From Deltaproteobacteria bacterium (GTDB taxonomy: Bacteria > Desulfobacterota > DSM-4660 > Desulfatiglandales > HGW-15): 36,620 bases of DNA. The notes beneath the pieces are model-generated. The model saw nothing but the letters and a program-made list of their open reading frames with translations. It did not search any database and was not told where the DNA came from. The translations under genes were made by a program, and so were the position numbers. Below are positions 25,220 to 35,055 of the stretch, piece after piece. Every line of letters begins with the position of its first letter. Position 1 is the first letter of the stretch. The stretch lies in NCBI GenBank assembly GCA_019310525.1, contig JAFDEE010000024.1, positions 1 to 36,620 of the forward strand, given 5' to 3'.

Positions 25220-25414
25220 CCTTCCCCGCCCGGTCAGGGGAACGGCCCAACGCTCATTTCACCCCCCATTGATCCTTTCCATTTCTCAAGGCGGTGTGTC
25301 ATAATATATCTTTTCGGAGACCTTTGAAAAATGGGCCGGGTTTGCTCATATCGCTCCCCGGCCATTCCAGCTCATTTTCCAGGCCTGTGTGATCCGATTC
25401 GAGAGGAGGCGCAA

Positions 25415-26563
25415 ATGGCAAAAAAGACCTTGTATTTTCATTTGGCCCTGTTCAACGTCCTCCTTTTCTTGCTGCTCTCACTCCCTCCCGCCGAGGCCCG
25501 CGTCAAGTTCGTGGCATTGCCCGGGCCCGGGAAAATCGTTCTTCACCTGGATAATCCCTCGGCCGCCCTGGTCGAGGAGGACCGGAGTCTGACCCTCGAA
25601 AAAGGCTTAAACCGGGTGGATTTTTCCTGGAAGGGGGTGCGGATCGATAGGGACTCCGTGCGCATGACCATTCTCTGCCCCAAGGATCAGGCCTCCCTTC
25701 TCAATGTCGGTTTCCCTCCGGGAGAAGAAGCCCTCTTGTGGGAGATCTACAGCAAGGAGGCCGGAGAAGTGTCGGTGCGAATAAGCTACCTTCTCTCCCG
25801 CATCGACGGGCTCCTCCATTACAAGGCCGTCGCAGACAAGGAGGAAAAGACCATCGATCTGAGGGGATTCCTGGTTTTGCGCAATTTTTCGGGAGAGGAT
25901 TTCCAAGATGTAGTTGTTCTTCCTGCAGGGAACGGGAAGTTCTCGGCCACCGTGAAAAATGGAGAGACCCAAGAACTGCCTGTTTTCCATTGGAACCGCA
26001 TTCCCGTGGTAAAGGTATGGACCTTCGACGCCCGCAGGATGCCGTGGGATCCCGAGAAACAGGGGGCCGACGGAGCCCTGCCGGTAAGCTACCGAATCAA
26101 GGGCCGCCTGGGACCGAACCCCTCCACCCTGCCAGAGGGCAAGGTCCGTATCTTCCTGGAAGACGGCCGGGGAGGAACCCTTTTCCTGGGTGAAGGCAGG
26201 ATCAACCTGGATCCGGCAGGTGAAGAGGCCACCATCTCCGTAGGCTACAGCCGGGATGTCGTGGTCAAGCAAAGAAAAACCCTGGAACGCCGCATCCACG
26301 TCCGGCGGAATGACAAGAACCGAATCGTCCTCTACGATTCGGAAGAAGAGATCAGGGCCCTGGTTCGAAATTTCAAAGACAGCCCGGTAAAGCTCCTCAT
26401 GATCCAGCACATCCCCGGCCAGTGGGAAATGAAGGCATGCAATCTTCCCTACGAGCGAAAGGAAGCGGGTCTGCTCGAATTCCACGTCACACTCCCCGCC
26501 AAGGGAGAGCAGGAACTCACCATGAGATACATCCGCCGAAACATACGACGGGAACCTTACTGA
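25415..26563 (+). CDS. Exported DUF4139-like protein, first of a tandem pair
   Basis: From the ATG at 25415 (382 residues, GAGAGGAGG upstream) the protein has a signal peptide ending PAEARV, so it is exported. The mature part is beta-rich and matches the layout of DUF4139 proteins: LTLEKGLNRVDFSW, a middle section with EVSVRISYLLSRIDGLLHYK, NFSGEDFQDV, and the C-terminal LVRNFKDSPVKLLMIQHIPGQWEM with TLPAKGEQELTMRYI. It aligns segment for segment with the next gene, which lies 22 bp downstream. The function is unknown; family members are exported, immunoglobulin-like-repeat proteins. The four N-terminal motifs are conserved between the pair, and the central region differs most. The promoter should be in 25220-25400, where TAATAT occurs near 25302 without a good -35. 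Confidence 0.78.
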   Translation: MAKKTLYFHLALFNVLLFLLLSLPPAEARVKFVALPGPGKIVLHLDNPSAALVEEDRSLTLEKGLNRVDFSWKGVRIDRDSVRMTILCPKDQASLLNVGFPPGEEALLWEIYSKEAGEVSVRISYLLSRIDGLLHYKAVADKEEKTIDLRGFLVLRNFSGEDFQDVVVLPAGNGKFSATVKNGETQELPVFHWNRIPVVKVWTFDARRMPWDPEKQGADGALPVSYRIKGRLGPNPSTLPEGKVRIFLEDGRGGTLFLGEGRINLDPAGEEATISVGYSRDVVVKQRKTLERRIHVRRNDKNRIVLYDSEEEIRALVRNFKDSPVKLLMIQHIPGQWEMKACNLPYERKEAGLLEFHVTLPAKGEQELTMRYIRRNIRREPY

Positions 26564-26585
26564 AGGAGCCTTGGAGGAAAAAGAG

Positions 26586-27935
26586 ATGAAGATTCGCCGC
26601 ATCTTCCTTGCCGCCATGCTCGTGCTGGCCTTGGAGGGAAGCTCCCTTGCCGAGACGGACCTGGCCGTCATCCCCGGGCGGGAGTCGGTCCAGCTTACCA
26701 TTTACAAGTCCGCAGACCTGACCCTTGTGAGGGAGAAAAGAAATCTCACCCTCAAGAAGGGGCTGAACCGGATTGAACTCTCCTGGGCCGATACCCTCAT
26801 CGACCCCACGAGCCTGGATGTGCTCCCGTCGGCCCATGCCGATAAGATCGAAGTAACCCTTCTCTCCTACCCGCCGGGGATCAGGAGCCTCGGGATATGG
26901 GAGGTGAAAAGCGCTGTTGAAGGCCCGGTGCCCTTCGAGGTCAGTTACCTGACCAGCGGACTCTCCTGGCACGCCTTTTACGAGGGGGTCCTGGGGCCTG
27001 ACGAGAAGACCATGGATTTGGAGGGTTATGTTGGGATTGATAACCACAGCGGGGAAGATTACGAAAACACCCGCATCAGGTTGATTGTAGGAAAAATCCG
27101 TCTCATCGACCGCATAACGGACCTGGCCCGGCGCCCTTTTCCTTTCGGTCGGCCCGGTTCCGGGCCGCTCCTTCCGGAAAAGGCCGCAGTGTCTGATAAA
27201 ATCTTTGAAGGAGATCGGGGAAAGGCAAAGGTCCTCAAGAAGGCCATGATGGCGCGACCCCGGGAGATTCGAAAGGAGGGCCGAAGCGAATTCTTTCTAT
27301 ACGACATCGAAGGAGCGTGCGACATTCCTGACGGATGGACCAAGAGGCTTCGAAGTTTCAAGGCAACGGAGATTCCCGTGGAGAGCCTCTTCAAATTCGA
27401 CGAAAAGCGTTTCGGTCCCAAGGTCTTTCGATTCTTGCGTTTCAGGAACGACAAGGCCCACCACCTCGGCAAGACCCCGATCCCTGAAGGCGTCCTGAGG
27501 GTCTACCGGGATTCGGGAAGAGCGGGACACCTCGCCTACCAGGGCCGCTCCCGGCTCGGGTATATCCCGGTGGGGCAGGAGGTGGAAATCCCCTTGGGAG
27601 AATCCAGGGATGTGGGTGCAAGGGTTGCCCTCGTGGATTACCGGACTGAAGGCTACCGCTTTGACCGAAAAGGCAACATAAGCGGGTGGGACGAGATCCA
27701 GACCTATGAAATCGAGGTCCGCAACACCCGGAAGATCCCGGCCAGGATGGAGATTCGGCGCCGGTTCCCCACCCCTGCCTGGGAAATACGAAACAGCGGC
27801 GATTTCGGGACCTTTGAGAAGGAGGACCTGAAAACCGTAAAGTATACCCTGTCTGTGCCACCCCTGGCCGTCAAAAGATTCCGTTACGTTCTTACGATTC
27901 ACCACGGGAGGAGGGCCGACAGGATCACCCCTTAG
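26586..27935 (+). CDS. Exported DUF4139-like protein, second of a tandem pair
   Basis: The 449-residue protein has a signal peptide (MKIRRIFLAAMLVLALEGSSLA, cleavage after SLA) and the same architecture as its upstream neighbour: LTLKKGLNRIELSW, FEVSYLTSGLSWHAFYEGVL, NHSGEDYENT, FRFLRFRNDKAH and SRDVGARVALVDYRTEG. It ends with TLSVPPLAVKRFRYVLTIHHG. The two are clear paralogues from a local duplication. This copy has an extra central insertion (about residues 170-235, rich in Arg, Lys and Pro) that the first lacks. The ATG at 26586 has GGAGG five to ten bases upstream; the TTG further up overlaps that signal. Its TAG stop begins a family B repeat. A secreted or periplasmic pair acting together is inferred. 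Confidence 0.78.
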   Translation: MKIRRIFLAAMLVLALEGSSLAETDLAVIPGRESVQLTIYKSADLTLVREKRNLTLKKGLNRIELSWADTLIDPTSLDVLPSAHADKIEVTLLSYPPGIRSLGIWEVKSAVEGPVPFEVSYLTSGLSWHAFYEGVLGPDEKTMDLEGYVGIDNHSGEDYENTRIRLIVGKIRLIDRITDLARRPFPFGRPGSGPLLPEKAAVSDKIFEGDRGKAKVLKKAMMARPREIRKEGRSEFFLYDIEGACDIPDGWTKRLRSFKATEIPVESLFKFDEKRFGPKVFRFLRFRNDKAHHLGKTPIPEGVLRVYRDSGRAGHLAYQGRSRLGYIPVGQEVEIPLGESRDVGARVALVDYRTEGYRFDRKGNISGWDEIQTYEIEVRNTRKIPARMEIRRRFPTPAWEIRNSGDFGTFEKEDLKTVKYTLSVPPLAVKRFRYVLTIHHGRRADRITP

Positions 27936-29753: not shown

Positions 29754-30470
29754 ATGAAAACCATTGGGCTTATCGGTGGGATGAGTTGGGAGTCTTCCGC
29801 CCTTTACTACAGGATCATCAACGAACGGGTGCGGGAGAAGCTCGGAGGACTCCATTCCTCGAGGAGCATCCTATATTCCGTGGATTTCTCTGAGATCGAG
29901 GAGCTTCAACACTCAGGCAGGTGGGACGAAACCACGGAGATACTGGCGGAGGCGGCCGGGAGCCTGGAAAGGGCGGGAGCGCACTTTTTTCTCATCTGCA
30001 CCAACACCATGCACATAAAGGCAGATGAGATAGAGGCCCGTGTTCAAATTCCCCTGCTTCACATCGCCGACGCCACTGGAGAAAGACTGAGGGCCGAGGG
30101 CCTTCACCGGGTAGGACTCCTGGGGACCCGGTTCACAATGGAGAAGGACTTCTACCGGGGGCGGTTGTCGGATCGATACGCCCTGGACGTGCTGATCCCT
30201 CCTGAGGAGGACAGGGAGATCGTTCACCGCGTGATTTACAACGAACTTTGCCGGGGGGTTGTCAACTCTTCCTCGAGGGAGGCTTACCGGCAGATCATCA
30301 AGGGTCTCGTTCGGAGGGGCGCCGAGGGAATCATCCTTGGATGCACCGAGATAGGTATGCTCGTAGGGCAGCAAGAGAGCCTAGTTCCCGTCTTTGATAC
30401 GACACGCATCCATGCATCGGCAGCGGTGGATCTTGCCCTCGACGAACAGCAGGGGTCCTCGTCTCCCTGA
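29754..30470 (+). CDS. Aspartate/glutamate racemase family protein (YgeA-like)
   Basis: The 238-residue protein begins KTIGLIGGMSWESSALYY, typical of the YgeA-like branch of aspartate/glutamate racemases. The two catalytic cysteines are both present: C82 in FFLICTNTMH and C197 in IILGCTEIG. It would racemise an L-amino acid (aspartate, glutamate or a less specific substrate) without PLP, in the cytoplasm. Length and motif spacing are complete. The ATG at 29754 has GGAG about ten bases upstream. It is close behind the 5'-nucleotidase, and the ECF T-component start lies 58 bp downstream, so the four genes may be co-transcribed, though nothing links their functions. Confidence 0.88.
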   Translation: MKTIGLIGGMSWESSALYYRIINERVREKLGGLHSSRSILYSVDFSEIEELQHSGRWDETTEILAEAAGSLERAGAHFFLICTNTMHIKADEIEARVQIPLLHIADATGERLRAEGLHRVGLLGTRFTMEKDFYRGRLSDRYALDVLIPPEEDREIVHRVIYNELCRGVVNSSSREAYRQIIKGLVRRGAEGIILGCTEIGMLVGQQESLVPVFDTTRIHASAAVDLALDEQQGSSSP

Positions 30471-30528: not shown

Positions 30529-31278
30529 ATGCTGGAACAGGATTTTGAAAACGTCCATTCCCCGGTGCATCGCCTGGACCCCCGGGCCAAGGTGGTCGTA
30601 GCCATCTGTTTCTCTTTCGTGGTCGCCCTGAGCGACCGTTTTACTGCAGTCATTCCCTCGATCCTCTCGGCGCTCTTCCTGGTCTTTCTCGCACATCTCC
30701 CCCCCAGGAAAGTCTGCTCGCGCCTCCTTGCAGTCAACGGGTTGATTTTGGTCCTATGGGTGTTCCTGCCATTTACCTATCCGGGCGAAACGCTTTTTCG
30801 CGTAGGCCCCTTCCAGGCCACTCGGGAAGGAATACTCTACACCCTTCTCATCACCTTGAAGACGAACGCCATCATCCTGGCCTTGATCGCCCTGGTGACC
30901 ACTATGTCAGCCTTCGACACGGGCCGGGCCATGAGAAGACTCGGAATTCCGACCAAGATCGTTCATCTTTTCCTGCTCACCTACCGCTACATTCACGTCA
31001 TCTACATGGAATACCAGCGCATCACCAAGGCGATGAAAATTCGAGGCTTTTCCCCCAAAACGGACCTTCACACCTACCGGACCTATGCCTACCTGGTGGG
31101 GATGCTGTTTATCCGAAGCTATGACAGGGCGGAACGGGTGAGAGCCGCCATGCTCTGCCGGGGATTTACCGGAAAGTACTATGACCTGGGCGAGTTCTCC
31201 TTTGGGCACTCCGACAGGATCCTTACCGGGCTCATGCTCCTCGGAATCCTCGGGATCTCATTGCTCCAATGGGGATAA
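30529..31278 (+). CDS. ECF transporter T component (CbiQ-like)
   Basis: The 249-residue protein begins with the conserved HSPVHRLDPRAKVVVAI stretch of EcfT/CbiQ proteins and has several membrane segments in the N-terminal half (around 25-60, 65-85 and 105-125). The two coupling-helix motifs that contact the ATPase are ITKAMKIRGFSP and RVRAAMLCRGFTG. It anchors the substrate-binding S component and transmits ATP hydrolysis. The next gene encodes the matching ATPase with a histidine-rich tail, which suggests nickel or cobalt. No CbiM/CbiN-type S component is near. The ATG at 30529 is preferred because homologous sequence starts there. Confidence 0.88.
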   Translation: MLEQDFENVHSPVHRLDPRAKVVVAICFSFVVALSDRFTAVIPSILSALFLVFLAHLPPRKVCSRLLAVNGLILVLWVFLPFTYPGETLFRVGPFQATREGILYTLLITLKTNAIILALIALVTTMSAFDTGRAMRRLGIPTKIVHLFLLTYRYIHVIYMEYQRITKAMKIRGFSPKTDLHTYRTYAYLVGMLFIRSYDRAERVRAAMLCRGFTGKYYDLGEFSFGHSDRILTGLMLLGILGISLLQWG

Positions 31279-31352
31279 ATGCTTGGGCGGGGACTGAGTT
31301 CCCGATCCAAGGGGGGCTTGACGATTGAACAATACCGGCAAAGGAGAAGGCA

Positions 31353-32084
31353 TTGACGTTGATCGAGCTTAAAAACGTTCATTTTACTTACCCCGGCGGG
31401 ATACGAGTCCTCAGTAACCTCGATTTTAAACTCGGGGAAGGGGAAAAGGTGGGACTCATCGGTCCCAACGGCAGCGGTAAAACGACTCTTTTTCACATCA
31501 TCATGGGATTGTTGAAACCGGATTCCGGACGCATAACGATCTTCGGGAGAGAATGCCGGGAGGAGAAGGACTTCAAGACCGCGAGAAGGGAAATCGGCTT
31601 GTTGTTCCAGGATCCCGATGACCAGCTTTTCAGTCCGACGGTCCTCGAGGACCTGGCCTTTGGCCCCCTGAACCAGGGCAAGTCCGTCCGGGAGGCAAAG
31701 CGAATCGCCAGGGGAGTCTTGGAAATGCTGGGGCTTTCGGGATTCGAGGACAGGATCACCTACAAGCTTTCGGGAGGGGAAAAAAAACTCGTGGCCCTGG
31801 GAACCATCCTGGCCATGAAACCGCGGGTCCTGCTTCTCGATGAACCCACCACCGCCCTGGATCCCGAGACAACGGAGCGAATCATTCAGATCCTAAAGGA
31901 GATCGATGTCTCCTACGTCTTTATATCCCACAACATGGACTTTCTCCTCCAGATGGCGGACAAGATCTACGGAATGGAAAACGGGCGCCTGATCTTAGAA
32001 GAGGACAGCATCCCCCACACCCACGTTCACGTCCATCCATCCGGCCGTATTCAACATACCCATTCCGGAGGGGATATGCATTAA
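31353..32084 (+). CDS. ECF transporter A component (CbiO-like ATPase) with His-rich tail
   Basis: The 243-residue ABC ATPase has Walker A GPNGSGKTT, the Q loop LLFQDPDDQLF, the signature KLSGGEKKL, Walker B VLLLDEPTTALDPE and the switch His in ISHNMD. The C-terminal 25 residues are loaded with histidines (HTHVHVHPSGRIQHTHSGG), a metal-binding feature seen in Ni/Co transporters. It powers uptake with the CbiQ-like T component 74 bp upstream. The start codon is TTG at 31353, supported by AAAGGAG a few bases before. The gene ends just where the A/T-rich region begins. Confidence 0.9.
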   Translation: MTLIELKNVHFTYPGGIRVLSNLDFKLGEGEKVGLIGPNGSGKTTLFHIIMGLLKPDSGRITIFGRECREEKDFKTARREIGLLFQDPDDQLFSPTVLEDLAFGPLNQGKSVREAKRIARGVLEMLGLSGFEDRITYKLSGGEKKLVALGTILAMKPRVLLLDEPTTALDPETTERIIQILKEIDVSYVFISHNMDFLLQMADKIYGMENGRLILEEDSIPHTHVHVHPSGRIQHTHSGGDMH

Positions 32085-33925: not shown

Positions 33926-35055
33926 ATGAGATATTTGGCTCCATGGGTCATAGATGATTTAAAACGCAAAATGGTATTTATTGGCGGACCGCGCCAGGTA
34001 GGTAAGACCACCCTTGCCCGGTTTTTGCTGCAAAAGCATTTTCCTAAGGGCAGGTATTTCAACTGGGATTTTGATGAAGATCGGCAGGATATCCTGAAAA
34101 AACGTTGGCGGGATGATAGTCCGCTTCTGATCTTTGATGAGCTTCACAAGTACCCCCATTGGAAACAGTGGATAAAAGGCATTTATGACGTTCTGGGAGA
34201 AAATCATCGTATCCTGGTATCGGGGTCTGCACGGCTCGATGTATACAGGAGGGGAGGAGATTCCCTGATAGGCCGCTATCATTACTGGAGATTGCACCCG
34301 TTTTCCCTGGATGAAAGACCTGCCGGCATGTCGTGCCAAGAAGCCTTCGGGCGCTTGATGGCAGTTGGGGGATTTCCAGAGCCTTTCCTCGATGGCAGCG
34401 AACACTTTGCAAGACGCTGGCGTCGGGAACGATTCAGCCGGGTCATCAGGGAAGACATCAGGGATCTTGAACAGATCAGAAACATTCAGTTGTTGAATCT
34501 CATGCTTGATATCTTGAGAAGGCGGGTTGGGTCGACTATTGTATATTCAAACATTGCAGAAGACCTTCAGGTAGCACATAAAACAATCAAAAACTGGCTT
34601 GAAGTTCTTGAACGCATGTACCTTGTATTTTCCATCCGGCCTTTTACCCGGTCTATTCCCCGGTCTATCCTGAAGCCCCCAAGGTCTATTTTTTTGACAA
34701 CGGTGATGTGATCGGTGACGAGGGTGCATGTTTTGAAAACTTGGTGGCATCTTCCCTGTTGAAGAGGCTTCATTTTCTTGAGGACAGGGAAGGTTACCGA
34801 TACGAATTACGCTACATCAGAGACAAGGAACATCGGGAAGTGGATTTCGTCATTTTAAGGGATGGCATTCTGGAAGAGTTGATAGAGGTTAAATACGGAG
34901 ACAAGAAAGTTTCCAGATCCTTGAAATATTATGCTGCAAGGCTGAGGCCGGAAAAAGCCACCCAGATAGTTGCTGAGCTGAAAAATTCTTACGATGAGAA
35001 CGGGATCACTGTGATTGGCCCGGAAGAATATTTTTGTGGCAATTCGGTCTGGTAA
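33926..35055 (+). pseudogene. AAA ATPase with DUF4143 domain (COG1373), broken by a single-base frameshift
   Basis: The N-terminal part (33926-34711) has Walker A FIGGPRQVGKTTLARFL, Walker B LLIFDELHKYPHW, the sensor-like ILVSGSARLDVYRRGG and a typical LEVLERMYLVFSIRPF. The same protein continues in another frame from about 34681: KVYFFDNGDVIGDEGACFEN, then a C-terminal DUF4143/PD-(D/E)XK-like domain (EVDFVILRDGILEELIEVKYG). The frames join at a run of five C at 34676-34680; six C would restore one frame of about 376 residues, the normal family length. These ATPases are common in islands, sometimes linked to toxin-like or mobile functions. Whether the shift is a sequencing error, a pseudogene or reversible slippage is unknown. 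Confidence 0.85.

Follow-up and report, generated by a model that had tools for sequence, protein, structure and literature searches.

Passages found in the literature propose NikKMLQO systems for delta-proteobacteria (PMC545781), survey them (PMC2667541), map them in cable bacteria (PMC11247825) and describe lowered urease activity in a nikO mutant of Brucella (PMC2868824). According to the same passages, Desulfovibrio vulgaris has nikMQO together with separate nikK and nikL (PMC545781), and in Ca. Electrothrix gigas nikMQO is rearranged (PMC11247825). Save for a table entry giving a 'nikQO' operon for a Desulfuromonas species (PMC545781), these passages gave no case of Q and O lying apart from M, L and K.

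The window analyzed here (the whole stretch of 36,620 nucleotides, C24:1-36620) is an entire contig of a draft genome (3.78 Mb in 158 contigs, 96.76% complete, 3.14% contamination). It encodes two NikKMLQO components, T (NikQ, of the CbiQ family) and A (NikO, with its ATPase motifs intact), and a Pfam scan of 28 of its proteins, covering the larger open reading frames, found no S-component family. A sequence-only reading of the window had described T and A components without a visible S component, a histidine-rich tail on the A component and a racemase gene beside the pair, all of which were borne out:

29754..30470, + strand: aspartate/glutamate-type racemase, directly 5' of the T gene (Pfam PF01177, 147.4 bits; TIGR00035, 238 bits)
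30529..31278, + strand: T component, a NikQ/CbiQ-like transmembrane coupling protein (249 aa, ATG start)
31353..32084, + strand: A component, a NikO/CbiO-like ATPase (243 aa, TTG start)
32016..32063, + strand: histidine-rich end of the A component, HxHxHxHxxGxxxHxH (HTHVHVHPSGRIQHTHSGGDMH)

The T protein matched Pfam CbiQ (PF02361) at 141 bits (cut-off 25) and NCBIfam ECF_T_CbiQ (TIGR02454) at 161.4 bits (cut-off 111.8), and was 43 to 62% identical to its orthologues in a 12-row alignment. The A protein matched Pfam ABC_tran at 118.4 bits and was 48 to 71% identical to its orthologues; among the 25 NCBIfam matches listed, the top ones were ECF ATPase/CbiO models, and all 25 scored under their own cut-offs. 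What we take to be the Walker A motif (GPNGSGKTT), the signature (LSGGE), Walker B (LLLDEP) and the H-loop histidine are all present. Both reading frames are open and intact, and the differences at codon positions 1, 2 and 3 relative to four orthologues (T: 0.37-0.49, 0.20-0.30 and 0.64-0.66; A: 0.31-0.42, 0.19-0.31 and 0.60-0.65) are the pattern of constrained coding DNA. The six histidines and the glycine of the A tail were invariant in 11 of 11 aligned orthologues, including those of two genomes (G005 and G011) in which M, L, Q and O adjoin. As the tail is invariant also where nikM is adjacent, it is a feature of the family and gives no sign of a special partner.

The racemase gene is on the same strand as the pair, and it had been read as replacing the gene normally adjacent to T and A. 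That reading is a misfit for this lineage, in which the pair is often unlinked from nikM. No counterpart of the racemase was found in the other clustered loci of relatives, and it is probably an incidental neighbor outside the transporter. Elsewhere in the window, two adjacent DUF4139-related proteins (25331-27935, + strand; the second above the Pfam cut-off, the first under it) lie upstream of a UshA-like 5'-nucleotidase, and an AAA_14/DUF4143 ATPase, apparently interrupted, occupies two overlapping frames at 33926-35055 (+ strand; 33926-34711 and 34708-35055). The sole Rfam match in the window was a group-II-D1D4-3 intron (555-777, - strand, 51.3 bits), with no riboswitch or other known RNA family found near the T-A pair. 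NikR-like boxes were sought in either orientation with the consensus GTGTTAC-N13/14-GTAACAC, as given in a passage of PMC545781. Allowing up to three mismatches, four sites occurred in the window (7719, 10570, 33238 and 33259), none of them upstream of T, where 20 Markov-shuffled windows averaged 0.6; no box adjoined the T-A pair or lay on contig C74 (described below), and the 27 loci scanned in relatives yielded a single site with two mismatches.

The search was extended from the window to the whole genome for cbiM and nikM, as the sequence-only reading had suggested, and neither was found: CbiM (PF01891) was absent from the genome's contigs by family search, NikM was absent by a NikM-specific model made from relatives, and NikL was likewise absent by a model made from relatives. 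In controls on relatives, CbiM turned up in 104 of 148 by the family search, and NikL in 84 of 148 by its model. The case imagined as a refutation, a cbiM elsewhere with its own cbiQO partners, did not appear; the only other CbiQ-type gene lies 3' of BioY and ATPase genes, in a biotin transporter cluster. Two explanations of the pair were rejected. A degenerate duplicate was ruled out, given a single metal-type CbiQ in the genome and constrained T and A frames, and a position at a contig edge was ruled out, the pair lying about 30 kb inside its contig.

One NikK (PF10670, 180 bits) was found in the genome, at C74:4-459. This gene starts at the first base of its contig, in mid-protein and with its 5' end open, so that only the 3' two thirds is kept (183 aa of protein), and neither M nor L was found 3' of it over more than 13 kb. 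With no nikM on that side, nikM-nikL would sit just beyond the contig edge; the place where they are expected is cut by a contig end, which is most likely why they look absent from the draft. No overlap was found between the first 150 bases of C74 and another contig end. The bin contamination of 3.14% means that C74 could be foreign, though its composition fits the genome: its G+C is 0.527 (genome, 0.56) and its tetranucleotide distance to the window is 0.14, where two other short pieces of the genome lie at 0.15-0.21 and seven loci of relatives at 0.21-0.48. Ferredoxin-like and large flavoprotein reductase-like genes lie downstream of the truncated nikK (L085, C74 689-3148, - strand).

Because PF10670 has several subtypes, a tree of 52 K homologues was built. 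The C74 protein fell within a 37-row group (SH-aLRT 97) in which M lies within 4.5 kb in 31 of 37, and is on this phylogenetic placement the nikM-linked NikK subtype. Besides C74, five rows of the group had no M: in G066 and G068 the contig ends inside nikL, in G060 K is on a 3.6-kb contig, in G071 the contig ends 217 bases downstream with more than 4 kb upstream free, and in G004 K is on one contig while nikM and nikL are on another. A named-genome search with the NikK alignment, retaining the best 80 out of 395 relatives, included several loci on the same contigs as those of the K tree. Among these best 80 of 395, M was found within 4.5 kb in 64; a contig end lay within 4.5 kb in 13 of the 16 others, and the remaining 3 of the 80 had at least 4.5 kb on both sides and no M match. 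Of the loci in this best-80 set arranged like C74 (no M in 4.5 kb downstream, at least 1.9 kb available upstream), six of nine had M upstream and three did not. A PDB search with NikK returned only weak matches (E 0.0007-0.0009) to chains labeled phosphoribosylglycinamide formyltransferase. A further subtype of DUF4198 (NikK-like) protein occurs at nine loci (L094, L095, L097, L099, L105, L113, L119, L122 and L123), mostly beside a short NikL-like gene as an orphan K-L pair; the stretches fetched there contained no nikM.

A separate S locus is common among relatives. Orthologous T genes occupied 57 places in 56 genomes of the same order (E ≤ 1e-40, same family and order only, with phylum-level rows dropped and G029 and G025 beyond the threshold); CbiM was within 4 kb in 37 of these and in none of the other 20, some of which are at contig ends. 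Reading of individual loci showed that in five genomes (G002, G008, G016, G057 and G077) nikQO and nikM-nikL-nikK are on different contigs, with other genes flanking the T-A pair in all five and with nikK itself cut by a contig end in G016. A T tree of 42 rows was built from 33 of the 57 places plus nine others (two Q of other orders, six from other CbiM-type loci and one BioN). In this tree the T of the window grouped with NikKMLQO-type proteins, apart from the six Q of other CbiM-type loci (SH-aLRT 99), within a 16-row group (SH-aLRT 92) of 12 split and 4 linked rows, a ratio that is not a frequency given how rows were chosen. Three of the four linked rows have nikM on the opposite strand, and in three of the split rows besides the window (G009, G061 and G068) no M was found anywhere in the genome. 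At five loci of relatives (L068, L070, L071, L073 and L079), nikQO by eye adjoins a large GTP-binding FeoB-like protein and a GreA-like gene.

Taken together, we consider it highly probable that the window encodes NikQ and NikO of a NikKMLQO-type nickel importer whose NikM, NikL and NikK are unlinked, with nikM-nikL likely in the gap upstream of C74. The T-A pair would thus be the energizing module, and NikM, NikL and NikK would be encoded at a separate locus that is broken at the start of C74, with nikM and nikL beyond the break. By analogy with established ECF biology, the membrane protein NikM would bind Ni(II), aided by the exported accessories NikL and NikK; ATP hydrolysis by NikO would drive a movement that NikQ transmits to NikM, and the metal would reach the cytoplasm, perhaps to be held there by the histidine-rich tail of NikO. 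Rather than being novel or lost, the S module is most likely encoded at an unlinked place that a break in the assembly conceals. The sequence-only reading had proposed metal uptake with a remote or novel substrate-binding subunit: metal uptake and a remote subunit are supported, but a novel one is not, given a nikM-linked nikK cut at a contig end in this genome and the separate nikM-nikL-nikK of relatives.

CO dehydrogenases are nickel enzymes, and the genome encodes two CO dehydrogenase (CODH) genes above cut-off; against the proposed reading, no NiFe hydrogenase was found in the genome and, as noted, no NikR-like box beside T-A or on C74. We infer nickel as the substrate from these two genes and from NikK and NikL, which in passages of two papers (PMC545781; PMC2667541) mark nickel systems. 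That the importer instead takes cobalt for vitamin B12 is unlikely. Pfam and NCBIfam do label the T protein as a cobalt transport protein, and NikK1ML1QO with a cobalt context is described for five proteobacteria in a passage of PMC2667541. Against cobalt stand the nickel association of NikK and NikL, the M-L-K cluster of one relative (G002), which adjoins genes judged from their sequences to be hyp hydrogenase-maturation-like, and scans of the window, of C74 and of four M-L-K loci from relatives, none of which turned up a cobalamin riboswitch.

A further explanation, which we hold to be decidedly improbable, is that nikM and nikL were truly lost and that nikQO and nikK are remnants of a decaying nickel importer. 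M and L are missing from an assembly that is 96.76% complete, and orphan NikK/NikL without NikMQO have been described (in a passage of PMC2667541). T and A are nonetheless intact and constrained, two nickel-dependent CO dehydrogenases remain, and the cut of nikK exactly at a contig start lets an assembly gap account for the missing genes; if C74 were foreign, or if other sequence filled its gap, a true loss of nikM would become more likely. Finally, it is very unlikely that the pair has some other, perhaps novel, substrate-binding partner, or that it is shared by several S components in the manner of group II ECF transporters, a bolder reading for which no positive support emerged. No S gene was found among the window proteins scanned, the genome-wide search, which took in CbiM and NikM, found neither, and one module is common to several S units in other ECF transporters (PMC3246461; PMC7755397). 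Against this, the T protein is 53 to 62% identical to those of ten relatives from NikKMLQO-bearing lineages (12-row alignment), the metal-type histidine tail is conserved and nikK, the accessory gene to be expected, is there. It is conceivable, if only as a long shot, that in this lineage a freed NikQO has become a shared energizer, serving one or more additional unpaired S components besides the remote NikMLK; if true, this would move a dedicated (group I) ECF transporter some way towards the shared (group II) kind.

An apparently orphan half of a transporter can arise from a split operon and a contig break, and presence/absence calls of metal transporters in draft genomes call for a look at contig ends for the adjoining accessory gene. 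That nikQO is repeatedly found apart from nikMLK within one Desulfobacterota group adds a modest new detail to nickel uptake.

Compared to described systems, the locus resembles CbiMNQO (PDB 5x3x and 5x41) in that PDB searches with the T and M profiles hit chains of CbiQ and CbiM, but no CbiM or CbiN gene was found near it, neither a cobalamin riboswitch nor a B12 gene context was found in the window or C74, and its T groups with the NikKMLQO type. The best-scoring solved relative of T in a PDB profile search was EcfT, and the separation of the T and A genes from an S gene recalls group II ECF transporters (EcfT, PDB 4hzu, 4huq and 5d3m); unlike these, the pair has one ATPase gene rather than two and a conserved histidine tail, and relatives have one dedicated NikM cluster. 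The closest likeness is to NikKMLQO, with NikQ- and NikO-type T and A components and a nikM-linked NikK subtype in a genome of the same phylum as the delta-proteobacterial cases, although nikQO here stands alone beside a racemase, nikM and nikL were not seen in the assembly and nikK is truncated by a contig end. As in D. vulgaris and Ca. E. gigas, the genes of the NikKMLQO system are distributed among separate loci; in those two M accompanies Q and O, whereas here Q and O are apart from M, L and K. The T-A pair is therefore mostly ordinary, belonging to a familiar type of system but with a less common gene arrangement.
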